Made by a program: the position numbers and the translations under genes. A stretch of 45,372 bases of DNA from positions 1-45,372 of the IMG/VR virus record IMGVR_UViG_3300048928_000176; one strand, 5' to 3'. The notes beneath the pieces were generated by a model. The model was given only the letters and a program-made list of their open reading frames with translations, was not told the origin of the DNA and did no database searches. Each line of letters begins with the position of its first letter. Position 1 is the first letter of the stretch. Origin of the DNA: a virus. Positions 1 through 35,358 of the stretch are shown one piece after another.

Positions 1-53
1 ACAAAACGCCAGCAATTTCAAAGCCATTTTCTCAGACGACGTTGACTCTGCAT
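1..53 (+). repeat. attL, 53-bp direct repeat
   Basis: The first 53 bases recur without mismatch at 45205-45257 and diverge at the next base (c here, t there). An integrase gene ends just inside the right copy, so the pair is read as attL and attR of an integrated prophage. The window starts exactly on the repeat, so it could extend further left. No tRNA or tmRNA end is recognisable in the repeat, so attB appears to be intergenic or at a gene end. Confidence 0.93.
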
Positions 54-80
54 CTGAGGTGACCCTTTGAAATTGCTGGC
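8..80. repeat. 16-bp inverted repeat spanning the attL boundary
   Basis: Bases 8-23 inside the att core (GCCAGCAATTTCAAAG) are the exact reverse complement of 65-80 (CTTTGAAATTGCTGGC) on the phage side, 41 bases apart. At attR only the core arm is present. Tyrosine recombinases use inverted core or arm sites, so this could be an integrase binding element. It could equally form a transcript hairpin. The match is direct observation; the role is inference. Confidence 0.7.
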
Positions 81-84
81 CTAA

Positions 85-101
85 GTTCATCACTGATGAA
101 C
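85..101. promoter_or_regulatory. 17-bp palindrome, possible operator or Xis/Int arm site
   Basis: GTTCATCA-C-TGATGAAC is a perfect 8-bp inverted repeat around one base. It lies between attL and the first left-end gene at 119. The one-base centre makes an RNA hairpin unlikely and favours a dimeric DNA-binding protein, such as an excisionase or a regulator of the 119 gene. Confidence 0.5.
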
Positions 102-118
102 ATGGGAGCCACGCAATT

Positions 119-376
119 ATGACTACCGATCAACAGCATTCAGAGTTCGAAGAACTTCGCAAATCCTTAATCGCCAAGCGTGTCGAGGTGGGCGCTGATA
201 CGCCCCTCGGCCGGCGCTACAGCATGGCCATCGAGATCCTCGGCAACATCCTCACCGCCGATGACGACCAGCTGGCCAACCTGAAGACCAGCCTTGCCAC
301 CGCCATCGCCGAGATCGAGCAAATCCAGCGCGACGGCGGGCTGTATGTCCACGGCAATCACGGAGCGCAGCGATGA
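119..376 (+). CDS. Hypothetical protein (85 aa), left-end operon
   Basis: First gene inside attL. It encodes an acidic, probably mostly helical 85-residue protein with no family I recognise. A GGGAG sequence lies upstream of the ATG. Its end overlaps the next start by four bases (ATGA), which ties it to the gene at 373. In the circular phage genome it lies downstream of the integrase, so it probably belongs to the rightward early transcript, and the att recombination event separates it from that promoter in the lysogen. Confidence 0.75.
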   Translation: MTTDQQHSEFEELRKSLIAKRVEVGADTPLGRRYSMAIEILGNILTADDDQLANLKTSLATAIAEIEQIQRDGGLYVHGNHGAQR

Positions 377-795
377 TGAAATACAAAGACCCAAACCACG
401 AGCACAATTCTGCATTCTGGCATACCGGCAAAAAATGCATCGAGAAGGGGTGCGGAAAACCGGCAGGCACTTGGTGGAGCCCGGTGTGGTGCTTTGAGCA
501 TAATGCCGAACGGATGGATCGTATCACGGCGAACCTGAACGATGCCGTCAAGGCGGCTGAAATCCACGAACTCATCAACAAGGAGACGGCGACGCTCCGC
601 AGTTGGGCCGGCGAGATGTCCCGGACGATCAAGGCGATGGTTCTCGCATCTGGCGGTAACTTGGTGATCAACAACGCCGATAAGGACCGCGAGCTTTTCA
701 GCGAATCCGTCAGCTATGGGAAAGAAACAACGACCTACCGCTACCACCCCAAGGCCGCCCCTCCCGTCCACGCGAACCAGGGAGCGGGACGATGA
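373..795 (+). CDS. Hypothetical protein with Cys/His-rich N-terminus (140 aa)
   Basis: The N-terminal 50 residues contain spaced Cys and His (KCIEKGCGKPAGTW, WCFEH) that resemble a small zinc-binding knuckle. A helical, charged remainder follows. It is linked by ATGA overlaps both upstream (373-376) and downstream (792-795). I do not recognise a characterised family. Coding is supported by the operon overlaps at both ends. Confidence 0.75.
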   Translation: MMKYKDPNHEHNSAFWHTGKKCIEKGCGKPAGTWWSPVWCFEHNAERMDRITANLNDAVKAAEIHELINKETATLRSWAGEMSRTIKAMVLASGGNLVINNADKDRELFSESVSYGKETTTYRYHPKAAPPVHANQGAGR

Positions 796-968
796 AGGAA
801 CCCCTCCCCCAGCGAGCCGTGAAGGAAGTCGTCCCGGCAGATATCTGGATCGAACGGCTTAGCCAGTTGCTCAAGGTCACTGCGATGATGGAGCCCGACG
901 AGCGCTCCGCAGCCTTCGCATTCTTGAAATCGAAATTCCGCGAGCAATGGCCGAGTGACGGCTACTAA
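792..968 (+). CDS. Small hypothetical protein (58 aa)
   Basis: A short frame beginning MKEPLPQRAV and ending PSDGY. It starts inside an ATGA overlap with the previous stop, which is the main support. It is probably a single helical domain of unknown function. Confidence 0.6.
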   Translation: MKEPLPQRAVKEVVPADIWIERLSQLLKVTAMMEPDERSAAFAFLKSKFREQWPSDGY

Positions 969-1022
969 CCGTCTTCAGTAGAGACGTTTCCACTTCACCC
1001 TAGCGCTCTTGGAGCTTTCAAA

Positions 1023-1253
1023 ATGGCATACGGAATTCAAGACCCGATCGACCTCGCCCGCGTTATCTTCGGCATGTCGTATGGCGGCCTAGTCGATGTC
1101 GCACGTCAACTTGTCGAGATGAACCAAGAAGGAGAGCGAGACATCAAGACCGACAACGGCATGGCCAGCACCCTCTACGATTGGGCAGAGGCTCAGGTCG
1201 AAGAAGCTGACGAAGAAGCGCGGCAGGCGAAGCTGGCAACTAAAGCCGCCTGA
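1023..1253 (+). CDS. Hypothetical protein (76 aa)
   Basis: An acidic 76-residue protein (MAYGIQDPID start) with a TTGGAG Shine-Dalgarno-like element about 10 bases before the ATG. The C-terminal half is rich in Glu and Ala and likely helical. No family recognised. It follows a 54-base gap that holds only a weak hairpin. Confidence 0.65.
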   Translation: MAYGIQDPIDLARVIFGMSYGGLVDVARQLVEMNQEGERDIKTDNGMASTLYDWAEAQVEEADEEARQAKLATKAA

Positions 1254-1289
1254 CCACTGCCACGTATCCGGAATATGATGGAGGATAGC

Positions 1290-1514
1290 ATGACGGAAGA
1301 AGTAACCTTCACTTACAAAAACTATCGTGGCGAGACCTCTGTTCGGAGAGTGCGCCCGATCAGAATGTCGTTTGAGTCGAACGAGTACCACTCCGAGCGG
1401 CAGTGGATGATTCATGGGTTCGATATCGACAAAGACGATGACCGCACATTCACGATGGCGGACATCACCGACTGGCAGCCCGCCCCAGCGGTCACGAATG
1501 GAGAGCGTTCATGA
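1290..1514 (+). CDS. WYL-domain-like small protein (74 aa)
   Basis: The sequence has the layout of the ligand-binding part of WYL domains: Y-x-N-x-x-G-E, then RRVRPI, then RQWMIHGFDIDKDDDRTF and a closing I-x-x-W. Small stand-alone proteins of this type occur in alphaproteobacterial genomes and phages. WYL domains are thought to sense nucleic acids or nucleotides. I chose the ATG at 1290 because GGAGG lies five bases upstream; in-frame ATGs at 1275 and 1278 are alternatives. The end overlaps the next gene by ATGA. Confidence 0.65.
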   Translation: MTEEVTFTYKNYRGETSVRRVRPIRMSFESNEYHSERQWMIHGFDIDKDDDRTFTMADITDWQPAPAVTNGERS

Positions 1515-1732
1515 GCCTGTTGATGGACGATCTGGCCTGGGCGTGGCGGATGCTACAAGCGCGGCGCATCAGGCGCGGTCTCATCTTTTCTAGACGAAAG
1601 GCCTACGATGATGCCCTTCGCCCCAGCGCCGGTAGCAGCATCATCGGTTACCCTGATGCGTTCTATTATGTGCAGAAGCACGACATGATGCGCGCGGCCA
1701 CATTGGCTGAGCGTTTGCGTCCGACAGAATGA
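1511..1732 (+). CDS. Hypothetical protein (73 aa)
   Basis: A basic, Arg-rich protein (LQARRIRRGLIFSRRKAYDD) that could be nucleic-acid associated, although nothing diagnostic is visible. It starts in the ATGA overlap with the WYL-like gene and ends nine bases before the Lar-like gene. Confidence 0.65.
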   Translation: MSLLMDDLAWAWRMLQARRIRRGLIFSRRKAYDDALRPSAGSSIIGYPDAFYYVQKHDMMRAATLAERLRPTE

Positions 1733-1740
1733 GGTAAACC

Positions 1741-1923
1741 ATGAGCACGACTCTTTTGCCCTGCCCATTTTGTGGCGGCGAAGCGGTTCTCTTGAAAGAT
1801 CATCAGAAACTCGGCTTCTATGTCGCCTGCACAGCCTGCAATGTGTCGGGGGAGACAGCCGTCAAAACCAAAGCGTGCGAGGCATGGAATATGAGGACCG
1901 CTCTACCACCTCAGACGTCGTGA
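1741..1923 (+). CDS. Lar-like zinc-ribbon protein (60 aa)
   Basis: It carries the hallmark of the restriction alleviation Lar family: LLPCPFCGGEA at residues 5-15, a second C-x-x-C (VACTACNVSG), and a terminal ACEAWNMR. Lar proteins of lambdoid phages modulate type I restriction. Many phage members of this zinc-ribbon family are untested, so an anti-restriction role is inference from the family. Length is typical. Confidence 0.75.
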   Translation: MSTTLLPCPFCGGEAVLLKDHQKLGFYVACTACNVSGETAVKTKACEAWNMRTALPPQTS

Positions 1924-1944
1924 CCGAAGAACGAGGATAGACCG

Positions 1945-2073
1945 ATGATCACTTACAAGACTTGGCTTCAATCTAAAGGGTCCGTCGAGTGGCAGCGCGA
2001 TGGATGGTATCTCTTCGGGTTTATTCCGCTTCTGGTGCGGGATCTTGGCCCTCGTGGCCGAGTTCGAACATAG
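1945..2073 (+). CDS. Very small hypothetical protein (42 aa)
   Basis: Starts at MITYKTWLQSKG after an ACGAGGAT ribosome-site-like element. It has a Trp/Phe-rich middle (GWYLFGFIPLLV) and a basic tail. The stop is three bases before the next ATG. No family recognised. Confidence 0.5.
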   Translation: MITYKTWLQSKGSVEWQRDGWYLFGFIPLLVRDLGPRGRVRT

Positions 2074-2076
2074 CCA

Positions 2077-2343
2077 ATGACAGACCTCAACAAGCTTTCG
2101 CCTGAAGCCCTCAAAGCCGCAATGCGCGGCGGCACAGCCGAATGGGGCGCCAGAGGCTCAGCATCGGAGCATTTGCTATACGTCCAGCAGAACGACGCCC
2201 AGAAGCGAAGGAAGTGTTACTGTGGCTGCGGCGGTCGCATGACTCACGGCGCCTATGCTAACGGGATTATTCTCATGGGTGGTTGCGAGTTGTCCTGCCG
2301 GCGCTGGGCCAAGGAAATGAACGCGGCACCTAAACGCTGTTGA
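2077..2343 (+). CDS. Cysteine-rich hypothetical protein (88 aa)
   Basis: The middle contains CYCGCGGRMTHG and, later, CELSCRRW. This arrangement of Cys and His is consistent with a zinc-binding fold. The N-terminus is helical. It lies in a run of small rightward genes; function unknown. Confidence 0.7.
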   Translation: MTDLNKLSPEALKAAMRGGTAEWGARGSASEHLLYVQQNDAQKRRKCYCGCGGRMTHGAYANGIILMGGCELSCRRWAKEMNAAPKRC

Positions 2344-2356
2344 GCAGGGAACGCAG

Positions 2357-2440
2357 ATGACAGACGCACAATTCTATTTCTTCGTAATCTACATCGCGAT
2401 CTGGTCGATGATAATCCTATGGCGAATGCCACGTTCTTAA
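2357..2440 (+). CDS. Single-pass membrane micropeptide (27 aa)
   Basis: A 27-residue frame consisting almost entirely of a hydrophobic helix (FYFFVIYIAIWSMIILW) with a basic end (RMPRS). Upstream is GAGCAGGGAACGCAG, with a usable GGGA. Such peptides are common among phage early genes, but this one is supported only by its composition and its fit between two other genes. Confidence 0.45.
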   Translation: MTDAQFYFFVIYIAIWSMIILWRMPRS

Positions 2441-2458
2441 GCGAAACATGAGGACGCC

Positions 2459-2671
2459 ATGGCCATCAAACGAGCGCCAAAGCAGCCAGATCATCAAAGC
2501 CTATCGGTCGATGAAGAGGTTGCTCACGCCATCTGCAAGATGGTCTACAGCCAGTGCGATTGCGGCGATCGTGCGCGTGGGCAGGTATGTGATGCGATGA
2601 AGGCGGCAGCAGGTATCGCAAAGACCCACTACTTTCTGGACTTCGTGCGGTCTCGCGCTCATGGGCAATGA
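2459..2671 (+). CDS. Hypothetical protein (70 aa)
   Basis: Encodes a 70-residue protein with Cys residues in QCDCGDRARGQVC, a possible metal site, and a helical C-terminus. ATGAGGACGCC precedes the start. It is the last gene of this rightward run before the reversed gene at 2684-2899. Confidence 0.6.
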   Translation: MAIKRAPKQPDHQSLSVDEEVAHAICKMVYSQCDCGDRARGQVCDAMKAAAGIAKTHYFLDFVRSRAHGQ

Positions 2672-2683
2672 GCCGCGACGCCT

Positions 2684-2899
2684 TTACGGCGTGAATACGC
2701 CCTTGAACTTTGCGGCGACGCGGGCATTCCGTTCCATTGATTTTCGGTGACGGAATAGCACGCCACGAACCGTCTCCCGGTTCAGGCCAAACTCACGGCC
2801 GATGTCGGTATTCTTCAAGCCGGGATCGCTAGTCGCACGACGGCATATTTCATCATTGCGCAGCTTTATTTCTTCAGAAGTCTTCGTGGGGTGCCCCAT
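2684..2899 (-). CDS. Small helix-turn-helix protein (71 aa), lone reversed gene
   Basis: Starts MGHPTKTSEEIKLRN; a helix-turn-helix is visible in NTDIGREFGLNRETVRGVLF, followed by a basic tail. It is the only minus-strand gene in the left block and has its own upstream region (2900-2981) containing AT-rich TATATGATATG, consistent with independent expression from the lysogen. I chose the start at 2899 because CGGAGAG lies seven bases upstream; the longer frame to 2926 lacks this. It is probably a small DNA-binding regulator; its target is unknown. Confidence 0.7.
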   Translation of the reverse strand: MGHPTKTSEEIKLRNDEICRRATSDPGLKNTDIGREFGLNRETVRGVLFRHRKSMERNARVAAKFKGVFTP

Positions 2900-2981
2900 G
2901 ATGCTCTCCGTGATTCGGCAAAGCATATCATATATTTAAGCCGGACATGACGCCCGCCCCGCCATCCGCTAAAATGGGGAG

Positions 2982-3293
2982 ATGCCAGAACTAACGCGAC
3001 GCCTGACATGGCCAGACGACAGCCACGCCCGTGACGATTGGTCGATCTCTTACGGTGACATCGGCGTCGGCAGGATCATGCGCCACCCAGGAACTCAGAG
3101 AGAGTTCTGGCGCTGGTCGGTCGGATTCTATCCCGGGGCTCACCCCAACCAGAACATCAGCGGCAATGCTGCTTCATTCGAGGAAGCGCGGGAAAGGTGG
3201 CAAGCAGCTTGGGAGCGCTATCTGCCTGACCGAACCGAGGCCGAGTTTGAGGAATACCGGGCCTGGCACCGACGTCGCGGCGGGAAGTCCTGA
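2982..3293 (+). CDS. Conserved-type hypothetical protein (103 aa)
   Basis: The sequence WSISYGDIGVGRIM...FWRWSVGFYPG...NISGNAASFEEAR has the pattern of a small protein repeatedly seen in rhizobial genomes and prophages (W-rich beta core followed by an E/A-rich helix with RWQAAWERYL). I know of no assigned function. GGGGAG lies immediately before the ATG. The other + frame over the same region (3031-3321) lacks this protein-like pattern. Confidence 0.7.
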   Translation: MPELTRRLTWPDDSHARDDWSISYGDIGVGRIMRHPGTQREFWRWSVGFYPGAHPNQNISGNAASFEEARERWQAAWERYLPDRTEAEFEEYRAWHRRRGGKS

Positions 3294-3349
3294 CGGAACC
3301 AATCGAGCGCCGACCGCTTGAATCCGCCGTTCAGTTGCGGAGTTGCGTG

Positions 3350-3643
3350 GTGTCCTGGTCTATCCGGTTTCCCGAGCCAATTGCCCTGCCCGATGGCGGC
3401 GAGCTGTCCACCCTCCAGGATGCCGGGGCCTACATCACCCAATTACCGAAGAAGACGCAGGCGTTGCCGACTTGGCAGACCGCTGCGTATGTCCTGATCC
3501 AGGCTGCCGACCACGGCGGGCCGATTGAGTTCGCGCGGCTCGGCATGAGGCAGGCGCTATTTCCAAAGGGCGAGCCGGTCTACCATTCCCGGAAGAAGGA
3601 CCCGGTCTGGCGCAACCGGACGAAGCTGGTGAGGGACCGATGA
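3350..3643 (+). CDS. Hypothetical protein (97 aa), GTG start
   Basis: Reads SWSIRFPEPIALPDGGELSTL..., with AAYVLIQAADHGGPIEFAR in the middle, a pattern of small phage proteins of unknown role. The start is a GTG at 3350 (adjacent GTG at 3347, TTG at 3335); GGAG lies upstream. It ends in an ATGA overlap with the next gene. Confidence 0.65.
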   Translation: MSWSIRFPEPIALPDGGELSTLQDAGAYITQLPKKTQALPTWQTAAYVLIQAADHGGPIEFARLGMRQALFPKGEPVYHSRKKDPVWRNRTKLVRDR

Positions 3644-3837
3644 GTGAGCGGAAGGATATCGATAACCTGATCAAAGGTGTCGAAGAGGCCCGCGCGCTGC
3701 TCAGTGGGTACATCGAGCCGGGCCCGCGGAGCGCTGTGGACACGGTAGACCGACTGATCGACGTGCTCGACGACCGGGACTTCGTTGCTACGCTCGATCG
3801 GCTGAACCGGCGTAGGGTAATCCGCTTGGTCGAATAA
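3640..3837 (+). CDS. Hypothetical protein (65 aa), last of left rightward block
   Basis: A charged helical protein (MSERKDIDNLIKGVEEAR start). It is coupled by ATGA to the preceding gene. Its TAA stop directly abuts the stop of the convergent gene at 3838-4023 with no terminator hairpin visible between them. Confidence 0.65.
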   Translation: MSERKDIDNLIKGVEEARALLSGYIEPGPRSAVDTVDRLIDVLDDRDFVATLDRLNRRRVIRLVE

Positions 3838-4023
3838 CTAGCCGGGCTCATCCACCTGCGGGATTTCAAACGAAGCTGCTTCCCAGACCGACGGCAGTGA
3901 CGGCCGGCCGGCAATCGCTCCAACAACAATGATCGTGGCGATAATCGTCACGGCCCACGAGATGCCCTTCTGGGCACTCTGGTTCATTTCCCAGTCTCTC
4001 TTTGAATTGGATTCCTCGTACAT
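3838..4023 (-). CDS. Small membrane protein (61 aa)
   Basis: One hydrophobic segment (ISWAVTIIATIIVVGAIAG, about residues 21-39) follows a charged N-terminus; the tail is acidic and Pro-containing. GGGAGG lies five bases before the ATG at 4023, which decides this start over the internal ATG at 3987. It lies downstream of the acyltransferase pair and is probably co-transcribed with it. Function unknown. Confidence 0.65.
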   Translation of the reverse strand: MYEESNSKRDWEMNQSAQKGISWAVTIIATIIVVGAIAGRPSLPSVWEAASFEIPQVDEPG

Positions 4024-4092
4024 GGCGGCCTCCCTTCATGTCAGGGATAAGCGCCACGCAGCCCAGTTGGTTCCCGGTTCCTGCCGTGGAAC

Positions 4093-5157
4093 TTATTTGG
4101 TGCCGTTTCGCGTCATGATCTCCGCCATCGCCTGCCCCAGCCGATGACCGATCTTGTCGGTATATTCAGCCTTCACATGTGCAGGAACCGAAAACATATC
4201 GGCCGGCCATGTTTCAATCAGGGGGAATGGAATCTCGACTTCCGGATGAGCCTGCCTGAATTTTGCGATCACGTCTCGCGCTTCTCGGCTCCCGTTGCCG
4301 GTGCCCAACGAGCAGGCGACCGGCTGGAACACAACCACCAGCTTTGCGTGATGACGCGCAGCGAGATCGGCGTAGCTATCAAGCACCTCTTCCAGATAGG
4401 TCTTGTTGCGCATGCCGCGGACGCTGAAGAATGTCGGCGTCGGCACGTCGCACTCTGCCGGAGACACGGCAACACGCGGATCGGTTTCCTTCATAAAGCC
4501 GTGGCTTTCTCGGAAGACCTTCAAGAATTCGAGATAGTTCACGTTGTTGAGGAGCGGACGGCTGGGCTCGTTGAAGAAGCCGTTTGCATAAAAGACGAAG
4601 TCCGTCACGCGCCTTCGGAAGGCTAGCGACGGGATCTGGAATATCCGCCAGACGCTCAGATACGCATCATGCACTGCGTCGCCGAACACCTTAAGCTCGG
4701 GAACGGCCCAGAGCGCCGCCCCATCTGCATCCCAGGTCTCAGCGCGCGGCATTGTGTACGGTGTCACATGCAGCACCATATATTTGATGGACGAATTGTT
4801 GCGCGCCATCAGATCGAGAATGTTGAAGTATCCGCGAAAGCCGAGGTTGGCGCAGCAGCTCATATTTAGATAGCTGACCGGTGTCGGCAAGTCGCTCATC
4901 ACGACGCGCGGGTCGATGCCATAGAAACCCGAACTATCGCCCGACTGGACGATGTCCGGGTTCGAGAACGCAAACGCCTTGATCTTCTCGTGCACAAATA
5001 GCCGCTGCGGCGTCTCGTCCTTCAAAAAGGAGAACTGCAGGAAACTCGTGCGATCAAACGGATCGGGATGCTTGGAAATATAGATTCCCGTCTCAAGAGC
5101 GAGGATGAATGCCGCCGCGGCAATCCAGGCCTTAAAAGGCGAAATATATGAACTCAT
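4093..5157 (-). CDS. SGNH-hydrolase/AlgX-like partner of MBOAT (354 aa)
   Basis: The protein starts with a cytoplasmic end, then one membrane segment (AWIAAAAFILALETGIYI, about residues 10-27), then a large exported domain. GDSSGFYGIDP at about residue 73 resembles block I of SGNH hydrolases (GDS), and a later H-x-x-G-H-like region (TDKIGHRLGQ) lies near the end. Proteins of this layout pair with AlgI-type MBOAT acyltransferases and transfer acyl groups to extracellular polysaccharide. The start (MSSYISPFK) lies inside the end of the MBOAT gene with a 26-base overlap and GGAGAGAGG upstream, so the two are translated together. Substrate unknown. Confidence 0.72.
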   Translation of the reverse strand: MSSYISPFKAWIAAAAFILALETGIYISKHPDPFDRTSFLQFSFLKDETPQRLFVHEKIKAFAFSNPDIVQSGDSSGFYGIDPRVVMSDLPTPVSYLNMSCCANLGFRGYFNILDLMARNNSSIKYMVLHVTPYTMPRAETWDADGAALWAVPELKVFGDAVHDAYLSVWRIFQIPSLAFRRRVTDFVFYANGFFNEPSRPLLNNVNYLEFLKVFRESHGFMKETDPRVAVSPAECDVPTPTFFSVRGMRNKTYLEEVLDSYADLAARHHAKLVVVFQPVACSLGTGNGSREARDVIAKFRQAHPEVEIPFPLIETWPADMFSVPAHVKAEYTDKIGHRLGQAMAEIMTRNGTK

Positions 5158-6667
5158 TGGCCTCTCTCCGGGCAAAGAACGCGATGCCGTACACCAGGAA
5201 TGCGATGAGCACAGCCTTTAAAACCAAAGGCATCTTCTCGTAGAGATCAGGAAATTCGCCTCCCCTGCGCCAGCCGAGATAGTCGGTGATCCAGACCGGC
5301 AGTGCGAAGATCAGAATTCCCCATGCATAGGCGCTGAAGGTCCAATTCGCCTGGATGACGCCCATCACAGTTCCCTTGAAAACGGAGAATGCGGAGAGCT
5401 GCCCGGCCAAGACCTGCGTCCAGTAATCCTTGTATAGCGCCACCGCGCCCAGGATGGCGGACGGCAGCGCCGTGATCGAATTGACCACAGGCCAGAACTG
5501 CTCGGGCGTCGCCCTGAAGAAGATCCAGCCAATGCACACGAGATGGAAGAACACGACAATCGATAGCGCCTTGCCAAAGCGGCCAAGGTGTCGGGTTAAT
5601 ATCGCGTCGAGCGGGATGAAGCGGTACACCACCAGCAGAAGGCCGTGATAGGCGCCCCAGATGATGAAGAACACGCCGGCGCCGTGCCACAGGCCGCCGA
5701 GCAGCATTGTGATCATCAAGTTGCGCATCGTCAGCAACGAGCCGTGCTTGTTGCCGCCGAGAGGAATGTACAGATAGTCCCTGAGCCAGGTTGACAGAGA
5801 GATATGCCAGCGCCCCCAGAAATCCGAGGGGTTCGTTGAGAAGTAAGGTGTCAGGAAATTGCGCATCAGATCGACGCCGAACAGCTTCGCGACTCCGCGA
5901 GCGATCGTCGTGTATGCCGCAAAGTCGCAATAGATCTGGAACGTGAAAGCGTAAGTGAACACCAGACCCATTCCTGCAGGGAGCGTCGAATCCGACTTTG
6001 GCATCATGCGCTGCACGCTTTCGACGATGCCGCCGAAATTGTCTGCCAGGACGGTCTTCTGAAACAGACCGAACAGGATCATGAAGAGTGCCGAACTGAC
6101 GACCTGATTGCTCGGCAACGGCCGTATCTTGGCGAGCTGGGGCAACAGATCGCGCGCCCGCATGATCGGACCGGCAACCAGATGCGGGAAGAACGACACG
6201 AACGAGAGATAGTCGATGACGTTCCGATACGGCTTGAACTCGCGCCGGTAGATGTCGATCGTGTAGCTCATCGACTGGAAGGTGTAGAATGAGATCGCCG
6301 GAGGAAGCGACAGAGCGATTGGCGTAAGCACGATGCCGAAGGGAGCCAGTAGAAGCGCGAGGTCAGTTGTGATCCAGCCCGTGTATTTAAAGACGGACAG
6401 CAAGCCGATATTGGCAATGACACTGACGATCAGCAATCGCCTTCGGTAGGCATCGTTGTCGCTGCCATCGATCTTCTGACCTATGAAGAAATCGATCAGA
6501 GCGGTGATGAAGAACGGGACCAGGTACCAAAGCGCGCCGACGGCATAGAAGAACAGGCTGGCGACCAGCATGAAGGCGTTTGCGAATCTGGTCCTACGTA
6601 GGATGAGGTAGCCGGCAAGCACCACAGGCAGAAAAACGAACAAAAAATTGAAGCTGTTAAATTGCAT
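5132..6667 (-). CDS. MBOAT (AlgI-type) O-acyltransferase (511 aa)
   Basis: A polytopic membrane protein with about ten hydrophobic segments and the signature MBOAT motifs: FWGRWHISLSTWLRDYLYIP near residues 283-302 and GGLWHGAG near 323-330, containing the conserved membrane His. N-terminal FNSFNFLFVFLP is characteristic of the AlgI branch. The family moves acyl (usually acetyl) groups across the inner membrane onto polysaccharides, working with a periplasmic SGNH/AlgX-like protein, encoded here directly downstream. It is separated from the lysis genes by a terminator at 6754-6785, so it is likely its own transcription unit expressed from the lysogen. The most likely role is surface polysaccharide (O-antigen or capsule) modification. 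Confidence 0.9.
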   Translation of the reverse strand: MQFNSFNFLFVFLPVVLAGYLILRRTRFANAFMLVASLFFYAVGALWYLVPFFITALIDFFIGQKIDGSDNDAYRRRLLIVSVIANIGLLSVFKYTGWITTDLALLLAPFGIVLTPIALSLPPAISFYTFQSMSYTIDIYRREFKPYRNVIDYLSFVSFFPHLVAGPIMRARDLLPQLAKIRPLPSNQVVSSALFMILFGLFQKTVLADNFGGIVESVQRMMPKSDSTLPAGMGLVFTYAFTFQIYCDFAAYTTIARGVAKLFGVDLMRNFLTPYFSTNPSDFWGRWHISLSTWLRDYLYIPLGGNKHGSLLTMRNLMITMLLGGLWHGAGVFFIIWGAYHGLLLVVYRFIPLDAILTRHLGRFGKALSIVVFFHLVCIGWIFFRATPEQFWPVVNSITALPSAILGAVALYKDYWTQVLAGQLSAFSVFKGTVMGVIQANWTFSAYAWGILIFALPVWITDYLGWRRGGEFPDLYEKMPLVLKAVLIAFLVYGIAFFARREANEFIYFAF

Positions 6668-6703
6668 TTCGGACCAACGGAATTAGCCACAGCGGCCAGA
6701 CTG

Positions 6704-6732
6704 TTCCTTGCAACCTATTTGGTTTATGTCAA
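6704..6732 (-). promoter_or_regulatory. Candidate promoter of the acyltransferase cassette
   Basis: On the minus strand a perfect TTGACA (6732-6727) lies between the lysis-operon terminator and the MBOAT start. No good -10 hexamer is seen at 16-18 bases (AAGGAA-like). Alphaproteobacterial -10 elements are often poor, so this is only a candidate. The position fits a moron with its own promoter. Confidence 0.3.
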
Positions 6733-6753
6733 TCCAGAGTGGCGACACGAACG

Positions 6754-6785
6754 AAAAAGCCCGGCCACCATCGCTGGCGCCGGGC
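6754..6785 (-). terminator. Rho-independent terminator of the late operon
   Basis: Read on the minus strand, a 7-bp stem GCCCGGC/GCCGGGC with a 13-base loop is followed by TTTTT. It lies 56 bases after the stop of the RlpA-like gene, the last lysis gene. It separates the 23-kb late transcript from the acyltransferase cassette. Confidence 0.82.
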
Positions 6786-6841
6786 AAGTTTACAGAGAAA
6801 ACAGGACCGGTCATCCCGGTCGCCCTCTCGGGCTTCGTTGG

Positions 6842-7228
6842 CTACTGGACGGTGACGCGCGCGATACCGCCCATGCCGATTGCGTTGGCTGCTGCTCGAG
6901 ACAGGTCGATGCAGCGCCCCTTGATGAACGGCCCGCGGTCAGTAATCCGCACCCCCACCGATCGACCGTTGGCCTTGTTCGTGACGGTGACGTGGCTGCC
7001 GAAGCGCCTAGTGCGGTGCGCGGCCGTCAATGCGTAGGTGTTGAACCGTTCGCCGGATGCCGTCCGCTTGCCATGGTAGCCATCCCCGACGCCATACTGG
7101 CTGGCGATGCAGGTTTCCTCCTTGGTCATAGTGACGTTGATCGAGACGACGCCCTCAAGGAAATTCTGGGCAGACGCAGGCGTGACGAAGAGAGCGCACA
7201 GCAAAGCTGCCGCTGGAAGGCGGGTCAT
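6842..7228 (-). CDS. RlpA-like double-psi beta-barrel protein (128 aa)
   Basis: A signal peptide ([20 protein letters not shown], cleavage likely after residue 21) precedes an RlpA/DPBB domain: [40 protein letters not shown] and [13 protein letters not shown] are the family core. RlpA enzymes are lytic transglycosylases acting on septal or naked peptidoglycan. The protein is short and lacks a SPOR domain. The ATG at 7228 follows AAAGGA; the longer frame to 7282 is less likely. As last gene of the lysis module it may be an auxiliary wall-degrading enzyme. Confidence 0.85.
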
Positions 7229-7259
7229 AAGGATTCCTTTGGTGATGCTTCGGGGGTGA

Positions 7260-7604
7260 TTAAGACCGCGAGTATTCGCCATCGACGTTGGCGCGGCGTG
7301 GGGTCTGAATGTAGCCCTCGCCCTTTCGCAGTCCTTCGACGGTAGCGTGGAGAGTGGAATAGTCCACCTGAAGAGCGGATACCTCCTGCTTCATAAGCGC
7401 CACCTCGCGCTCGTTCATGGTGAATTTTTCAAGCACGTCGGCAATCCGGCCCAACGTCTTCTCGACCAACTCAACCCGAAATTCGAGCATGTCCATGCGG
7501 CCACCAAACTTGGTCCACGCGACGGATAATGTGATGACCCAAACGATGGCCCCGAACAGGATCGTAAGCAGATTTCCGGCGCTGATAGACGCATCAAAGA
7601 CCAT
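7260..7604 (-). CDS. Membrane-anchored coiled-coil protein, holin candidate (114 aa)
   Basis: One strong transmembrane segment ([19 protein letters not shown], residues about 10-28) is followed by a long heptad-rich helix ([20 protein letters not shown] onwards). It lies between the spanin pair and the RlpA-like enzyme. The arrangement fits a small phage lysis protein such as a class III holin or lysis accessory, but a single TM segment plus coiled coil is not diagnostic. Start [13 protein letters not shown] chosen at 7604; the frame is open further upstream to 7667. Confidence 0.68.
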
Positions 7605-7627
7605 TTCCAGATTCCCAGTCTTTCCTG

Positions 7628-7924
7628 TTATTTCAAGCCATAGCTCTGACGCACAGACCCGTACCATCCACGAAACCGGGTTATGATTGCTGCATTCTGC
7701 TTGCGGGCCGACCGTTCGCGCGCAGCGATCGCAAGCTGCGGTTCGCCTACACGCGGCTCCTGGACAGAAACCGGCTGAGCGAAGGCCGGCGTTGCTGGCA
7801 AATTACGGGCGATCGGCTCACGACCGACGCTAGCGCAACCGCTCAATATCGGCAGGAGTAATGCGGCACTGATCAGCCACAGGCCGCTTCGACAATTCTT
7901 CCTCAAGCTTGCGCTGGAACTCAT
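7628..7924 (-). CDS. o-spanin (Rz1-like lipoprotein, 98 aa)
   Basis: Starts inside the i-spanin gene in another frame (95-base overlap). A lipoprotein signal peptide with lipobox LPILSGC is followed by a Pro-containing linker (LPATPAFAQPVSVQEP), as in outer-membrane spanin subunits. The embedded or overlapping arrangement with a membrane/coiled-coil gene is the standard Rz/Rz1 layout. It acts in the last step of lysis, fusing inner and outer membranes. The length is longer than lambda Rz1, and the C-terminal half (AIAARERSARKQN...) is helical. Confidence 0.82.
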   Translation of the reverse strand: MSSSASLRKNCRSGLWLISAALLLPILSGCASVGREPIARNLPATPAFAQPVSVQEPRVGEPQLAIAARERSARKQNAAIITRFRGWYGSVRQSYGLK

Positions 7925-8168
7925 GCTCTTTCTCCTGATCCTTTGCCAGTTCATCGGCGTTGCGTGCGTCTTCCTTGGCGAGCAATTCGCCAATCTGAAT
8001 GTCCTTGTTCATGATTTCGATCTCACGCTGCTTCGCCGCTGCCTCACAGACACGCTTTGCGGAGTTGTAGCCCGTGCGGTGAATTCCGAAGGCGATGCCG
8101 AGGATCGCCACCCCAATGATGACATAGCGACCGAGCGTAGAGACGAAGAAGGCGAGAACGAGTGCCAT
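7830..8168 (-). CDS. i-spanin (Rz-like, 112 aa)
   Basis: An N-terminal transmembrane helix (YVIIGVAILGIAFGIHRTGY) is followed by a long charged coiled coil (KQREIEIMNKDIQIGELLAK and on), ending CRITPADIERLR. This is the inner-membrane spanin design. Its start shares one base with the endolysin stop (TGATG). The o-spanin gene begins within its last third. Confidence 0.85.
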   Translation of the reverse strand: MALVLAFFVSTLGRYVIIGVAILGIAFGIHRTGYNSAKRVCEAAAKQREIEIMNKDIQIGELLAKEDARNADELAKDQEKEHEFQRKLEEELSKRPVADQCRITPADIERLR

Positions 8169-9292
8169 CAGTTCAACCTTCCCGACCGTTTGTCATCGAC
8201 GATGGAATTGGTGGCCTTGTTCGAGCTGACATAGAGCCAGAACGCGGCGCCGCCGATCCCCGCCAGCCAGAGCCAGCCTGGCACATCGGTGAAGAAATCC
8301 ATGACCGGCTGGACGTATTCTTTCACGCCCGAGAATTGGTCCGAGACGCCCTTGAAAGTCGCCGCGGTCAGGGCACCGACGCCCGTGACCTTCGCTACCA
8401 GCCGCTGCCAGAGCGTCTGTTGAACTGCAGGAACGGCCGGCGCTATGTCCTTTGCGGTGACGTTGGCGCGCTCCGGGGCGATTGGCCGTGACCACCCCTG
8501 GGGGAGACTGTCCAGCGCATCCGTCAGTGCCTTGTCGATAACCGGCTGACCGCTTAAGCCACGGTCGTTCTTGAATGCCGCAATGGCCGCCGCCGTCTTG
8601 CCACCCCATAGGCCGTCAATCCCGCCAACCTCATGGTAGCCAAGACTGTCCAGACGCCGCTGGATCGTCTCTACGTTGATCTGTGGGGTCGCTGAGACGG
8701 GCTGAACGTTGAGGGGCTCGTCACCGTCTTCGAATTCGTCTGCCGGTGCGGCGGCCTCTGGCTCAGCGAAGAGATGCGCCACCGGCGGCCATACCGGCGC
8801 GGCCGATTTCGGCTTGCGGCCGCCATTGTCGACCGCCTCGAAATGCATCGGATCTTTCCGGCCGGTGTACCAGCCGCCCCACATCCAGCCCTGACGGCAG
8901 AACGCATCAATGACGAACTGCGGAATGTTGCCATCGGCGTATAGGCCATTCTCTTCCGCGTTCAGATCGATCGCCGCGGCGTAGGCGTGATTTGACCATT
9001 TCGTCTTGGAACCGCGCACCAGCCGGTGATTGTAAGCGCCCGCGTATTTAGACACGCCGGCAGCGTCAATCTTGACCTGGTCGTGCTGACAGTAATCCCA
9101 TATCTCATTCAGCGCGGCGAGCAGCGCCGGGGCCGCCTTCCGGTGAAACTGGATCGCCTTGATCTTCTTGCCCTCGTAATACATCGCGAACGGCGGGACC
9201 ACCGGCACCATCTGGCCGGCGATCTGCCCCTTGCCGGGGTCGCCATAGAATGAATTCCGGGCAGCCTGAGTGTCTTTCGGCCAAGCCGTCAT
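8168..9292 (-). CDS. Endolysin: M15 peptidase, PG-binding domain, C-terminal TM (374 aa)
   Basis: Residues 40-160 form an M15/VanY-type D-Ala-D-Ala carboxypeptidase or endopeptidase: SNHAYAAAIDLN carries the zinc His and Asp, and DPMHFE the second His. Residues about 205-260 (VETIQRRLDSLGYHEVGGID and on) are a peptidoglycan-binding domain. Near the C-terminus VPGWLWLAGIGGAAFWLYV is a membrane segment followed by a basic tail. It cuts cross-links in peptidoglycan during lysis. The membrane anchor is unusual for a free endolysin and hints at secretion control or tethering. ATG at 9292 has AGGAG nine bases upstream, better than the ATG at 9301. Confidence 0.88.
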   Translation of the reverse strand: MTAWPKDTQAARNSFYGDPGKGQIAGQMVPVVPPFAMYYEGKKIKAIQFHRKAAPALLAALNEIWDYCQHDQVKIDAAGVSKYAGAYNHRLVRGSKTKWSNHAYAAAIDLNAEENGLYADGNIPQFVIDAFCRQGWMWGGWYTGRKDPMHFEAVDNGGRKPKSAAPVWPPVAHLFAEPEAAAPADEFEDGDEPLNVQPVSATPQINVETIQRRLDSLGYHEVGGIDGLWGGKTAAAIAAFKNDRGLSGQPVIDKALTDALDSLPQGWSRPIAPERANVTAKDIAPAVPAVQQTLWQRLVAKVTGVGALTAATFKGVSDQFSGVKEYVQPVMDFFTDVPGWLWLAGIGGAAFWLYVSSNKATNSIVDDKRSGRLN

Positions 9293-9322
9293 TGAGTGCA
9301 TCTCCTATGGGAAGGGAAAGCG

Positions 9323-11287
9323 CTAGACGTTCAAGCCGCTAACGACTTTGTTGACGCCAGTACCAGCGTCCGAGACGCCCAAGGTCGAGCCATGAACGCG
9401 GTTCGTAGCAATCATGTAAAAGTCGCTTGCACCGGCCGCCACGGTGATGGCCGCCGCGTTGTTGCCCCATGCCGACGAACTTCCGCAGTTGTTTCCGATG
9501 ATCTGAAAATTCTTTACCGCTGGGCTGACGTAAATGCCGTAGGTGCAACCAAACACGCTGTTGCCTTCGATCAGCGCACTTCCGAGGGTCGTCGATTTAT
9601 CGAGCCAGATCCCATAGTCCTCGCTGACGATCTGGTTGCCGCGTATGGTCACGTCACCCGCCACCGATGGTGACAGATAGATTCCCGTGTTCGATACAGA
9701 GTTGCCGACGCCGCCCTTCATCTCGCAATCGGATATCAGTAGCCGATTGACGGACGAGACAAAGAAATTATGCAGCACGGTGCCCTCGCTCGTGCACCGA
9801 ATAAAGCGCACGACGTCAGGCGCCGTTGTGCCAAGATTGTTAGCCACCTGGGCACCGTAGTTGAACGCACCGGTGAAATCGCAGGCCTCGAACTCGATAT
9901 AGATGCAACCGCTGTCCACGAGCACCGCGACGCCCGCAGAATTGTTTGCCATGTAGAACACGGCGCCGCCATCAGTGATGGGCTGGCCGTACCACTTTCC
10001 CGTCAGCGACGGTGCTGACCCTCCACTCGTGCCAGCGGTCGTACACTGCAGATAGAACCCGCCGAGGGTGACGAAGTCCTTGACGACATACGCCGTACTG
10101 TTTGCTCGCGCGCCGCGATCATTTGCCGGGGCTGGCGGATTGCTGCCACCGCTGACCCAGTCCTGATTGAACAAGCAGCGTTTGAAGAAGACAGTTCCTG
10201 CTCCTTGGCAGTATGCGATGGCGCCGCCAGTGGCCAATCGCATCACGCAATTCGTGACGAGATTATCCGCCGTTCCGGACATCGCCCGGAAGCAGTAATA
10301 GCCGCCCACAATATCAAGCGCATCTAGCGTACACTGAACCGCCCCGGCTTCGAGCGACACGATGGCGCTCGCAATGCCGCATTGAACTTGCTGGAATAGG
10401 CTGAGGCGCTCGATTGCACACCGTGCGGCGGTAATGGTGACTACACTTATATTCGCTGTGTTGGTGAAAATGCTGCAGTATTTCTGGCCAACGCCAACTA
10501 GGCGGACGAGCGGCACAGATACGGTCAATCCGGTTACGACAAGATATCCGCCTTGCGAGAACAGAACGTCGCCACCTGAGTGAAACTGGCAAAGATTAAT
10601 GGCGGCCTGAATAGACGCCTGGTCGTCGGTCGTGTTGTCGCCCTTGGCGCCGAACCACTTGACGTCGTAGCTCCCCTCTGTGCGGGTGCGGACCCAAGCG
10701 CCCACTGATGCCGAGATGGCAGTCGCCTTGATGTAAATTCCTTCAGCTGTATCCGCTGCAATTCTGGCTGAGTAATTCCCGGTCATCCAAACAAAGATGC
10801 CGCCGCGGCCAGCTTCAATCAGATAGGCGGTCTTGTACCGAACCGTACTGACGGCCTTCAGGTCGGAACGCGCCGCAGCCAGGAACATACTATCGACAAT
10901 GCCGAGATTGGCTCGAACCTCGTCGGGATCGTCGAAATCCGCACCGTTGAGGGACGATAGAAGGTCGCCCGATCCTGGATCTCCCGCGATAACGACCGAC
11001 CAATCGGAAGCGGTCCCCGCCGAGGTTGGACCGATCCGCGTGAAATTAACGGTCATTGACGTCCCAGCATAACTGGTGACATCACCCTCCATGTAGTCAG
11101 CTGGGTCGGCAGCGGAGACAACCCGCACACGAGCGCCAGGCTTGTACGCAAGACCAGCGGGAACCGTAAATGTCTTGCTCCCGGTTCCGATCGTCATAGA
11201 TGTCGAAGACGTCGCGGCGAACCCAGGGGGCGATGGCGACACCTCATGAGCGACAATAACGTCAGAAACGAAATTCGTGATGGTCAT
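9323..11287 (-). CDS. Tailspike with pectate-lyase-like beta-helix (654 aa)
   Basis: The N-terminal ~130 residues (fibre attachment and small beta domain) are followed by VKWFGAKGDNTTDDQASIQA, the N-terminal signature of phage pectate-lyase-like right-handed beta-helix proteins. The rest is repetitive, with short beta rungs (IRGNQIVSEDYGIWLDKS, IEGNSVFGCTYGIYVSP) typical of the solenoid. Such spikes bind and often cleave host surface polysaccharide. The start at 11287 is in an ATGA overlap with the preceding gene. Polysaccharide specificity cannot be read from sequence. Confidence 0.85.
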   Translation of the reverse strand: MTITNFVSDVIVAHEVSPSPPGFAATSSTSMTIGTGSKTFTVPAGLAYKPGARVRVVSAADPADYMEGDVTSYAGTSMTVNFTRIGPTSAGTASDWSVVIAGDPGSGDLLSSLNGADFDDPDEVRANLGIVDSMFLAAARSDLKAVSTVRYKTAYLIEAGRGGIFVWMTGNYSARIAADTAEGIYIKATAISASVGAWVRTRTEGSYDVKWFGAKGDNTTDDQASIQAAINLCQFHSGGDVLFSQGGYLVVTGLTVSVPLVRLVGVGQKYCSIFTNTANISVVTITAARCAIERLSLFQQVQCGIASAIVSLEAGAVQCTLDALDIVGGYYCFRAMSGTADNLVTNCVMRLATGGAIAYCQGAGTVFFKRCLFNQDWVSGGSNPPAPANDRGARANSTAYVVKDFVTLGGFYLQCTTAGTSGGSAPSLTGKWYGQPITDGGAVFYMANNSAGVAVLVDSGCIYIEFEACDFTGAFNYGAQVANNLGTTAPDVVRFIRCTSEGTVLHNFFVSSVNRLLISDCEMKGGVGNSVSNTGIYLSPSVAGDVTIRGNQIVSEDYGIWLDKSTTLGSALIEGNSVFGCTYGIYVSPAVKNFQIIGNNCGSSSAWGNNAAAITVAAGASDFYMIATNRVHGSTLGVSDAGTGVNKVVSGLNV

Positions 11288-11688
11288 GCTGAGATCTTCC
11301 CAGGGTGAACGAAAAGAGGGCCGCGCCAGAATTCCTCGGTCACGCCGCTGACATAGGTTGCCACGAGGAATTGGTCCCACTTTCCGGTCGGGATCCACGC
11401 AATGATGTCATCGCGCCCAACAACGAAATCGAGCCTGCCTGGCATCGCGGGATCGAACTGAATTGCATTCCCATCAGCCACGGGCGACGATAGCCGGTAG
11501 ATGAGAATGCCGTGGTCGAAGACCGGTCGGATATACAGATCGAATCGATCAATCTCTGAAAAGTCGAAGCTAGCGATCGATCCATCGGACAATAGGCGCT
11601 TAAGCATGACGCCATCCCGCCAGTCCTCATCTCTTTTTATCTCGATTGTGCAAACGCTGTAGCGCTTGTCGAACTTCACCTGTTGCAT
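11284..11688 (-). CDS. Tail-associated hypothetical protein (134 aa)
   Basis: Lies between the tail fibre and the tailspike genes and is coupled to the latter by ATGA. The sequence (MQQVKFDKRYSVCTIEIKRD, FWRGPLFV) suggests a small beta-rich protein. By position it could be a fibre adaptor or chaperone; no family is recognised. Confidence 0.65.
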   Translation of the reverse strand: MQQVKFDKRYSVCTIEIKRDEDWRDGVMLKRLLSDGSIASFDFSEIDRFDLYIRPVFDHGILIYRLSSPVADGNAIQFDPAMPGRLDFVVGRDDIIAWIPTGKWDQFLVATYVSGVTEEFWRGPLFVHPGKISA

Positions 11689-11733
11689 TTCAAACCTGCC
11701 CTTCGATAGATAGCGCCTCAGCCTTCAGGGGAC

Positions 11734-13680
11734 TTAGTTCATCACTACTGCTGATAGGCGATCCAAGCTGGAAGAGTTCATGTTGTTCGCGTGGGCGCCG
11801 TCCCCCACTTGGTTCAGCGATAGGACATGTACGCCGACACCCGGAGTCCATTGATCTGCTGACGTACACCCCGCCTGCGCAATGACAGCGGAACCGGTAT
11901 AGATAATCTGGGGCTGTCGCCCCATCGCAGCTGTGTTGTCAAAGCCCATTCCGTATTGGAAAAACGAGCCAGCAACTGCTGTCGTATACCCGCCAGCGGC
12001 ATACGATACTGCAACCGCATCTTCGTTGAGGCCTAAGACAAAACTGATCTGGTTACCTGCGCTGCCGTTAGCTTGCCGCACAGTTGCAGCGGTGTAAGTG
12101 TAGGATGCTGACGTATCAACTACAGTTGTCCCTGTCGCAACTCGGTTATAGCAGTTCCAGACACCAAAGAAGGCGGCAGAACCGCCTGACGCTGATCCGC
12201 CGAAAATGTAATCAACCGTTGACGACGCGTTAGAGCGCACTGTACCGACATACGTGCCGCGAGAGGCCGCCGGACCGTTTGTTATGCTCGATGCATTCAA
12301 CAGAATGCCATTAACAATCGTTAGTGAATATCCGCGGGTCGTATCATTCGTCCATGCCGGGCCGCGTGTCGCGCGTAACGTGCCAGAGTCATTCCAGACA
12401 AAAACATCATATACTTTAGATGCTGCGACTGCCGCCGGAGATTTTGTAGCGTCTGTCGTCGATTGAGATACTTCTGATACCGACATCGGAATCATATTCG
12501 TGCCATCGAAAATCGGAACCATATCGCTGGCATACGGGGTGTAGTAAATCGTCGTTGATCCGCTCACAGTCGAACGCATGACAGGAGTGCCAGTCGACAG
12601 AGTGAGGCGACCACCCGGACGAAAGTATCGCTTTACTGCCCCCGTCTGCCCGTCAACTGACGAAACGCCCGCAACAGACCCGGAAACCTGCGCGTCTACA
12701 TATGCTGTTGTAGCAATCTGCGTGCTATTGGCGCTCGGCGACGCTGTAGGCGCCGTTGGTACTCCGCTCAGAGCCGGAGATGCCGCACGGACAATGGCGC
12801 CTGTTCCGGTGTTGGATGTCACCGCGACGCCATTGATGCTTAGCGAATTGCCAGATCCTGCCGTATCGAATGTGGTATTTGTTAAAGTCTTGGCTGCTGC
12901 CCACTTCGTTGTATCGCTGGTATTATCGACATTGCCGAGTCCGACATCTCCCTTGACCAGCGCCAGCAGCGCCTTGAAGGCAGCATAGGTGATATTCTTG
13001 ATCAGCTTACCCGTAGCGCCGTCAAACACGGTCGGCGTGCCGTCAGTTGCCGAAGCTGGACCTACAACTGCGCCATCAACATTGACCTGAACAATGTTCC
13101 ACTGCGCACCAACCGCAGCTTGCGTGCCGGACGCGGTCCCATCCGTTATGCAAAGAAGCGTGTCGCCAACTTCAACGTTGATGCCTGACGCACCACCGAT
13201 CTTGCCCGCGACGCTTACCTTGTATGTCCAACCACGATCAGCTGCGGGATAGTTTGGGTTCGCAGAACAGTTGATGACGCCCTTGAACACCATGGCGTCG
13301 GCTGCGGCGATGATTTGATCAAGATAGGTTTTTGTCGCTTTTTGCGTCGCAAGTCGCGTGTCGCTATTGGCCGCTAGCGTACCATCTGTATCGATAACGC
13401 TGCTTGCGAAATTCGATGTAGCCAGGTCTTGGATCGTATTCGATCCAGCAGCGATGGTCTTGTTCGTCAGGGTCGCAACAGCAGAATTTTTCGTGTCGTC
13501 AGACGTATTGTCGACGTTTCCAAGGCCAACTGTGCTTTTCGTCAGCCACGATAAAATCCAGGTCCGAACCTGAGAAAACAGGAACTTGACGTTTCCACCA
13601 TCCTGCACAGCGCGAAAAAAATCGCTGTCGGTTGGCGTAGCGCCTGTTGTTTCCTGAGAGGTTTTCTTATCAATTGCCAT
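11734..13680 (-). CDS. Tail fibre protein (648 aa)
   Basis: The N-terminus (MAIDKKTSQETTGATPTDSD) and Ser/Thr/Ala/Gly-rich low-complexity shaft are typical of tail fibres. The segment VGLGNVDNTSD occurs twice (about residues 51 and 246), each time followed by a TLTN stretch; this is the known phage fibre repeat type GLGNVDNTSD. ANSTQIATTAYVDAQVSG is another common fibre motif. The C-terminal 250 residues are the likely receptor-binding part, ending with a GVGVHVLSLNQVGDGAHAN region. Confidence 0.85.
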   Translation of the reverse strand: MAIDKKTSQETTGATPTDSDFFRAVQDGGNVKFLFSQVRTWILSWLTKSTVGLGNVDNTSDDTKNSAVATLTNKTIAAGSNTIQDLATSNFASSVIDTDGTLAANSDTRLATQKATKTYLDQIIAAADAMVFKGVINCSANPNYPAADRGWTYKVSVAGKIGGASGINVEVGDTLLCITDGTASGTQAAVGAQWNIVQVNVDGAVVGPASATDGTPTVFDGATGKLIKNITYAAFKALLALVKGDVGLGNVDNTSDTTKWAAAKTLTNTTFDTAGSGNSLSINGVAVTSNTGTGAIVRAASPALSGVPTAPTASPSANSTQIATTAYVDAQVSGSVAGVSSVDGQTGAVKRYFRPGGRLTLSTGTPVMRSTVSGSTTIYYTPYASDMVPIFDGTNMIPMSVSEVSQSTTDATKSPAAVAASKVYDVFVWNDSGTLRATRGPAWTNDTTRGYSLTIVNGILLNASSITNGPAASRGTYVGTVRSNASSTVDYIFGGSASGGSAAFFGVWNCYNRVATGTTVVDTSASYTYTAATVRQANGSAGNQISFVLGLNEDAVAVSYAAGGYTTAVAGSFFQYGMGFDNTAAMGRQPQIIYTGSAVIAQAGCTSADQWTPGVGVHVLSLNQVGDGAHANNMNSSSLDRLSAVVMN

Positions 13681-29892: not shown

Positions 29893-29969
29893 TGGTTGCA
29901 GGGGGTGGATTCGAACCACCGACCTCCTGGTTATGAGCCAAGCGAGCTACCGGACTGCTCTACCCTACG
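29893..29969 (-). tRNA. Initiator-type tRNA-fMet (CAT anticodon)
   Basis: A full 77-nt cloverleaf with encoded CCA. Minus strand 5' to 3': acceptor CGTAGGG/CCCTGCA, D stem GAGC/GCTC, anticodon loop CTCATAA, anticodon stem CTTGG/CCAGG, T arm GGTGG-TTCGAAT-CCACC. The first acceptor pair is C1-A72, the hallmark mismatch of bacterial initiator tRNA. A11-T24 in the D stem is also initiator-like. Two of the three initiator G-C pairs in the anticodon stem are kept (30-40, 31-39); the third is T29-A41. It differs at many positions from E. coli tRNA-fMet, so it is not a recent host copy of that form. It lies inside the prophage, upstream of the late genes, in the same orientation. Confidence 0.93.
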
Positions 29970-34003: not shown

Positions 34004-34459
34004 TTACTGTCCGGCCAACGAGCGGCGCGCGGCCTTGCGGATATCAACGACCTTCTCTTCGAGATCGGCCGCCGCTTCATCGATAGCGCGGGCCTCGCGT
34101 GGCGTGATGGCACCGTCGGCTGCAGCCTCGATCGTTGCGGAGATGAGTTCGCCGGATTCGCGTGCCACTTGGCCGGCGGCGACGGTTAGGTCACGGGTTG
34201 CCGCGGCGTCAGCGTTGCGCGCGACGAGCTCGAAGCCCATCAGATCAGCCCATGCACGGAGAATGACCGGGTCGCCGGCCAGCTGGTCGACCTCGAAGGC
34301 TACGTCGATTGGCACGTACAGCGAGCCATCAGGGCTGCCGTAGTTCGACAGGCGCCCTTGGTCGACGCGCAGATCCTTCGCCGCAGCAACCGGGCCGCCA
34401 GCCAACTTGATCGCGCGGCGCGTAGCAGCGCGCAGCGCATGCTGTGCATCAGTCAGCAT
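34004..34459 (-). CDS. Phage CII-like regulator (151 aa)
   Basis: ALRAATRRAIKLAGGPVAAA, KDLRVDQGRLSNYGSPDG and VPIDVAFEVDQLAGDPVILR match the phage regulatory CII (CP76-type) pattern: HTH, then a helical multimerisation part. The acidic helical C-terminus (AIDEAAADLEEKVVDIRKAA) is extended. By family, it would influence the lysis-lysogeny choice. Overlaps the upstream gene end by 11 bases. Confidence 0.78.
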   Translation of the reverse strand: MLTDAQHALRAATRRAIKLAGGPVAAAKDLRVDQGRLSNYGSPDGSLYVPIDVAFEVDQLAGDPVILRAWADLMGFELVARNADAAATRDLTVAAGQVARESGELISATIEAAADGAITPREARAIDEAAADLEEKVVDIRKAARRSLAGQ

Positions 34460-35077: not shown

Positions 35078-35271
35078 GCTGCGCTCTCCTCTTGTGACTG
35101 GATGAATGCATGGACCCGATCGACAAGACCGAGGCTGGGGATTCGGCCCCTCCGGAGGTCACCGACGAAATTGCGGTCGCTAACGGCGGACCACCCGAAG
35201 GCGCTGGCGGACATCCCGCTGCGTTTCAGGTAGCTGTCGATTTCGGCGAGGAAAGCTTCGGCGCTGGTCAT
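35074..35271 (-). CDS. Cro-like small HTH protein (65 aa)
   Basis: MTSAEAFLAEIDSYLKRSGM, SASAFGWSAVSDRNFVGDLR and RGRIPSLGLVDRVHAFI follow a small HTH family common in alphaproteobacterial prophages opposite the repressor. It is the first gene of the leftward operon, with operators O1-O3 upstream. The start at 35271 is chosen because the longer frame (to 35307) would run through operator O1. Confidence 0.75.
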   Translation of the reverse strand: MTSAEAFLAEIDSYLKRSGMSASAFGWSAVSDRNFVGDLRRGRIPSLGLVDRVHAFIQSQEESAA

Positions 35272-35284
35272 GGAAGCGGACCAT

Positions 35285-35300
35285 ATAGGACTATTCCTAT
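35285..35300. promoter_or_regulatory. Repressor operator O1 (perfect)
   Basis: ATAGGA-CTAT-TCCTAT, a perfect 16-bp palindrome with 6-bp arms, 14 bp from the cro-like start, where the leftward promoter -10 (TATATG on the minus strand) would lie. Confidence 0.85.
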
Positions 35301-35306
35301 TAAGCA

Positions 35307-35322
35307 AGAGGATAAATCCTAT
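35307..35322. promoter_or_regulatory. Repressor operator O2 (one mismatch)
   Basis: AGAGGA-TAAA-TCCTAT; centre 22 bp from O1, about two helical turns, allowing cooperative binding on one face. Confidence 0.75.
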
Positions 35323-35332
35323 TTCCCGAATA

Positions 35333-35348
35333 ATAGGAATTTACCTAC
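35333..35348. promoter_or_regulatory. Repressor operator O3 (two mismatches)
   Basis: ATAGGA-ATTT-ACCTAC; centre 26 bp from O2 and 10 bp before the repressor start codon, so it may autoregulate the repressor gene. Confidence 0.65.
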
Positions 35349-35358
35349 AAGTGCCCCT

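Follow-up and report, generated by a model that had tools for sequence, protein, structure and literature searches.

A putative MBOAT-SGNH acyltransferase gene pair in a temperate phage

MBOAT pairs of bacteria acylate alginate and cellulose (PMC9558356). In Gram-negatives, the best-studied job of MBOAT-SGNH pairs is peptidoglycan O-acetylation, and PatA is auto-acetylated on the Tyr of its FXYXXF motif, the acetyl-Tyr peptide being the donor for PatB (PMC12148441). Teichoic acid D-alanylation in Gram-positives is carried out by DltB-DltD. In this system the shuttle motif resides on the separate DltX. Finally, in alginate O-acetylation the MBOAT AlgI is paired with a separate SGNH protein (AlgJ/AlgX). 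Receptor acetylation is also known from phages, where it excludes relatives, as described for Sf6 (PMC9558356) and D3 (PMC11436027). Sf6 Oac, however, is a single AT3 protein and belongs to a family other than MBOAT-SGNH. In the open-access literature we found no work in which MBOAT, phage and lysogenic conversion come together.

Here we analyse a window, meaning the whole stretch of 45,372 nucleotides of the IMG/VR virus record IMGVR_UViG_3300048928_000176, in which a MBOAT gene is followed by the gene of a SGNH-type partner (Table 1). Like PatA-PatB of Neisseria and Campylobacter, the pair combines a FXYXXF-ended MBOAT with a separate membrane-anchored SGNH protein, and the fold of PatB is matched. 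PatA-PatB, in contrast, are chromosomal and target peptidoglycan, and the partner in the window lacks the usual Asp. DltB is the best PDB sequence match of the MBOAT (E 4e-23) and DltD the top fold of its partner, but the Dlt system is Gram-positive and the MBOAT remains under the cut-off of the DltB equivalog TIGR04091 (156 bits, cut-off 375). The separate SGNH protein also recalls AlgI-AlgJ/AlgX, although the partner does not match the ALGX family and no alginate genes were seen in the phage. The Oac proteins of Sf6 and D3 offer a functional parallel, namely phage-borne acetylation of the receptor polysaccharide. The pair belongs to the MBOAT-SGNH pairs, with a divergent partner, and in its predicted action it is like the Oac converters.

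The same two-gene order is found in JBD44, a temperate Pseudomonas phage whose receptor is the O-antigen (PMC9112912). Its MBOAT gp41 is followed on the same strand by the 372-aa gp40, and the pair adjoins the endolysin gene and lies near tail genes. The two MBOATs share about 34% identity, whereas the JBD44 partner has a different SGNH layout. In F_ET602, which is kin of JBD44, the partner has AlgX-type DTHWN and DSFG motifs.

Table 1. Positions of the features discussed, in coordinates of the window.
Feature	Positions	Strand	Remarks
Single-TM ORF, 61 aa	3838-4023	-	Strong Shine-Dalgarno AAGGGAGG; starts 69 nt past the partner gene
SGNH-type acyltransferase partner gene	4093-5157	-	354 aa, counted from the ATG at 5157
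Overlap of MBOAT and partner genes	5132-5157	-	26 nt; read from sequence
MBOAT O-acyltransferase gene	5132-6667	-	511 aa; Pfam MBOAT PF03062, E 1.7e-25
TTGACA, candidate -35 (weak)	6727-6732	-	Perfect, in a fitting place; without recognisable -10
Intrinsic terminator-like hairpin and T5 run	6754-6785	-	Separates the RlpA-like gene from the MBOAT gene
RlpA-like double-psi beta-barrel (DPBB) gene	6842-7282	-	Pfam 'Lytic transglycolase'; signal-peptide-like start; lysis region
Tailspike gene, pectate-lyase-like beta-helix	9323-11398	-	Context gene
tRNA-Met gene	29893-29969	-
CII-like activator gene	34004-34459
S24-type repressor gene	35110-36096
ThyX thymidylate synthase gene	42880-43662	+	Directly upstream of the integrase gene
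Integrase gene	43728-45173

Gene layout, transcription and phage context

Both genes are real and their ORFs are full length. The initial annotation had proposed that they overlap by 26 nt, and this is borne out by the best start of the partner gene, the ATG at 5157, which has GGAGAGAGG upstream. The start codon of the partner is nested within the codons of the C-terminal shuttle motif of the MBOAT. An identical overlap with the same nesting occurs in five distant pairs (L018, L061, L070, L112 and L117), and thus it is a trait of the architecture and not of the phage. The 61-aa ORF downstream may be the last gene on the same transcript as the pair; it has no match in Pfam or PHROG. It is DltX-like in size but does not end in a shuttle motif.

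The GC content and the codon usage of the pair are inside the phage's own range, and a recent import judged by foreign composition is therefore unsupported. A near-repeat, ACCAAATA..GTT.CA..AGGAAC on the minus strand, flanks the module (4077-4101 and 6703-6723). It was first picked out by eye and its significance is doubtful: a score as high was obtained in just 1 of 400 shuffles, yet also in about 1% of the windows taken from the same phage, and we rejected it as an insertion footprint. No Rfam families were found within positions 1-12000.

The pair had further been suggested to follow a terminator and to be read independently of the lytic operon. A hairpin of -21.4 kcal/mol, followed by TTTTT, indeed sits upstream of the MBOAT start, and 6 of 200 shuffled sequences were as stable. 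This terminator speaks for independent reading, but a promoter of the pair's own does not emerge, since a sigma-70 scan of positions 3600-7300 detected none. Moreover, the pair closes the late operon, next to the lysis genes, and its lytic expression is therefore possible.

Judged by its genes for a S24-type repressor, a CII-like activator and an integrase, the phage is temperate. Its tailspike is predicted to bind or cleave a polysaccharide receptor, and this is probably its function. Relatives of TerL and of the capsid protein include phages of Rhizobium, Sinorhizobium and Paracoccus, and the host is therefore probably an alphaproteobacterium. The window also contains genes for a ThyX thymidylate synthase and for a tRNA-Met, the latter matching stretches of Caulobacter phages (annotated as tRNA-Met) and of a Caudoviricetes record over 45-59 nt at about 90-96% identity.

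The MBOAT and its SGNH partner

The match of the MBOAT to PF03062 is firm (90.4 bits, curated cut-off 27). In an alignment with phage and bacterial homologues, His328 (in WHG, the conserved catalytic His) and His288 (in RWH) are invariant. The last six residues, FIYFAF (506-511), fit the FXYXXF acyl-shuttle motif and include Tyr508; a FXYXXF tail is present in 145 of the 157 MBOATs in the set collected in this analysis.

The partner has an N-terminal membrane anchor (residues 10-28). It has no match in Pfam, NCBIfam or PHROG, none by sequence among solved structures and, even at E 1, none to the ALGX family of Pfam. Direct searches of viral contigs, phages, plasmids and genome contigs did not recover it either, and 385 genomes (class of an alphaproteobacterium) yielded one weak match (1.4e-4), to an ORF that adjoins a MBOAT gene. 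When weak phmmer matches of at least 230 aa were considered, 9 out of 11 were MBOAT-adjacent (hypergeometric P 4.5e-5). A two-sequence profile, made of the partner and one alphaproteobacterial relative, likewise matched almost exclusively MBOAT-adjacent ORFs.

Only Ser75, in GDSS, and His327 are invariant in an alignment of 26 partner sequences, and by their motifs they are the SGNH block I nucleophile and the block V base, respectively. The Asp of DxxH, which completes the SGNH triad, is replaced by Val324 in the window. Block V reads FSVPAHV, as opposed to FxDxxHLN in most relatives, and the NxxG turn after the block V His is missing. Other MBOAT-adjacent relatives do without the Asp as well: 5 of 28 relatives have N, G or S instead. 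A fold search with an AlphaFold2 model of medium confidence (mean pLDDT 73) placed DltD at the top (E 9e-4) and PatB next, with modest scores that speak for a match at the superfamily level. Although modest and obtained with a medium-confidence model, these fold matches agree with the sequence evidence. On motif, profile and model grounds, the protein is a SGNH acyltransferase partner. The initial annotation had called it SGNH/AlgX-like. Of this description the SGNH part stands, based on Ser75 and His327, the profile and the folds, but the AlgX-like part lacks support, as there is no family match and DltD and PatB come first.

Viral relatives, predicted role and alternatives

A single-protein scan of viral contigs with the MBOAT found no match, but a profile scan recovered a MBOAT relative in 40 IMG/VR contigs. 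In 26 of these contigs the MBOAT gene is immediately followed by an ORF of 200 aa or more on its own strand, and in another 7 such an ORF precedes it. Fecal MBOAT matches labelled 'Bacteriophage sp.' were left out of the phage evidence, since they are mostly fragments of less than 12 kb and one of them (L006) also has transporter-like genes. Among 90 neighbours of viral MBOATs, the most frequent PHROG matches are to tail fibre and spike families. When the biggest of the close neighbours was considered at each locus, 14 of the 20 loci examined had a tail fibre, spike or depolymerase in this place, a count made without control and biased by the choice of the largest neighbour, as spikes are large. 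Of the 159 MBOATs placed in a tree, 34 form a well-supported clade, to which 26 viral rows, JBD44 included, belong. The MBOAT of the window falls outside this clade and lies amid bacterial sequences, and its long branch is not firmly placed. It was likely recruited separately from the JBD44-type clade.

The sequence evidence supports a complete MBOAT-SGNH envelope acyltransferase pair in a temperate phage. Acylation of a surface polymer, as had been proposed at the outset, is its well-supported predicted function, to which the MBOAT match, the shuttle motif, the SGNH partner and the DltD and PatB folds all point. From PatAB and DltBXD we infer a relay that would lead from acyl-CoA via Tyr508 and Ser75 to the polymer. 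An acyl group, most likely the acetyl of acetyl-CoA, would be carried through the inner membrane by the MBOAT and loaded on its Tyr508. Ser75 of the membrane-anchored partner would receive it, and the partner would pass it on to a polysaccharide hydroxyl in the periplasm or at the cell surface. The most likely acceptor would be the LPS or exopolysaccharide recognised by the tailspike. A receptor polysaccharide is favoured as the target because of the pectate-lyase-like tailspike, the precedents of Sf6 and D3 and the neighbours of MBOATs in other phages. If the pair is expressed in the lysogen, as we infer, neither the phage nor its relatives would find the acylated surface suitable any more. 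Sf6 and D3, as analogous cases, make a receptor change that excludes relatives plausible, and the phage probably alters the surface of its host, as other phages do with different enzymes. On balance, we therefore lean towards the view that the pair is a lysogenic-conversion module, which acylates the polysaccharide recognised by the tailspike and alters the lysogen surface against the phage and its relatives.

The main rival explanation is that the pair acylates peptidoglycan in a PatAB-like manner, so that the wall resists the lytic transglycosylases or lysozymes of other phages, or the timing of lysis is tuned. PatB is among the top folds of the partner, the pair is directly downstream of lysis genes, the DPBB/RlpA-like gene included, and peptidoglycan O-acetylation is the best-studied task of such pairs in Gram-negatives (PMC12148441). 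DltD outranks PatB, however, the fold match holds only at the superfamily level and phage MBOATs elsewhere mainly neighbour tail fibres and spikes; we regard this explanation as unlikely. Less probable still is that acylation of host exopolysaccharide or LPS serves the fitness of the lysogen in its interaction with soil, plants or predators and leaves phage adsorption unaffected. The rhizobial and Paracoccus hosts indicated by TerL relatives would be in line with it, as would the acylation of alginate and cellulose by bacterial MBOAT pairs (PMC9558356), but a role at the receptor is the better fit to the recurrent association of phage MBOATs with tail fibres and spikes and to the use of O-antigen as receptor by JBD44.

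Alternatively, the SGNH partner might be catalytically dead due to the exchange of Asp for Val, with a decaying module, or it might be a mere scaffold. Val324 at the Asp position and the missing NxxG turn speak for this. Yet Ser75 and His327 are retained, both ORFs have their full length, the overlap and the MBOAT motifs are intact and some of the relatives also do without the Asp, and we consider a dead or merely structural partner quite improbable.

Beyond the single locus, temperate phages may have recruited two-component MBOAT-SGNH systems several times independently, often beside tail fibres or spikes, for receptor editing that parallels the AT3-type Oac, in the present case with Ser-His and without Asp. 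We put this forward tentatively and with some doubt. If true, phage receptor acylation would be served by a second enzyme family besides AT3, and the acyl-Tyr relay known from bacterial envelope polymers would be a phage tool as well. MBOAT genes are found again and again, in dozens of viral contigs, which makes the idea directly testable, JBD44 being one example.

Two further observations concern the viral MBOAT loci. A single viral contig (L096:6001-11449) carries two MBOAT-partner pairs in tandem, and in L092 a gene for a phage-type single-subunit RNA polymerase lies near the MBOAT gene.
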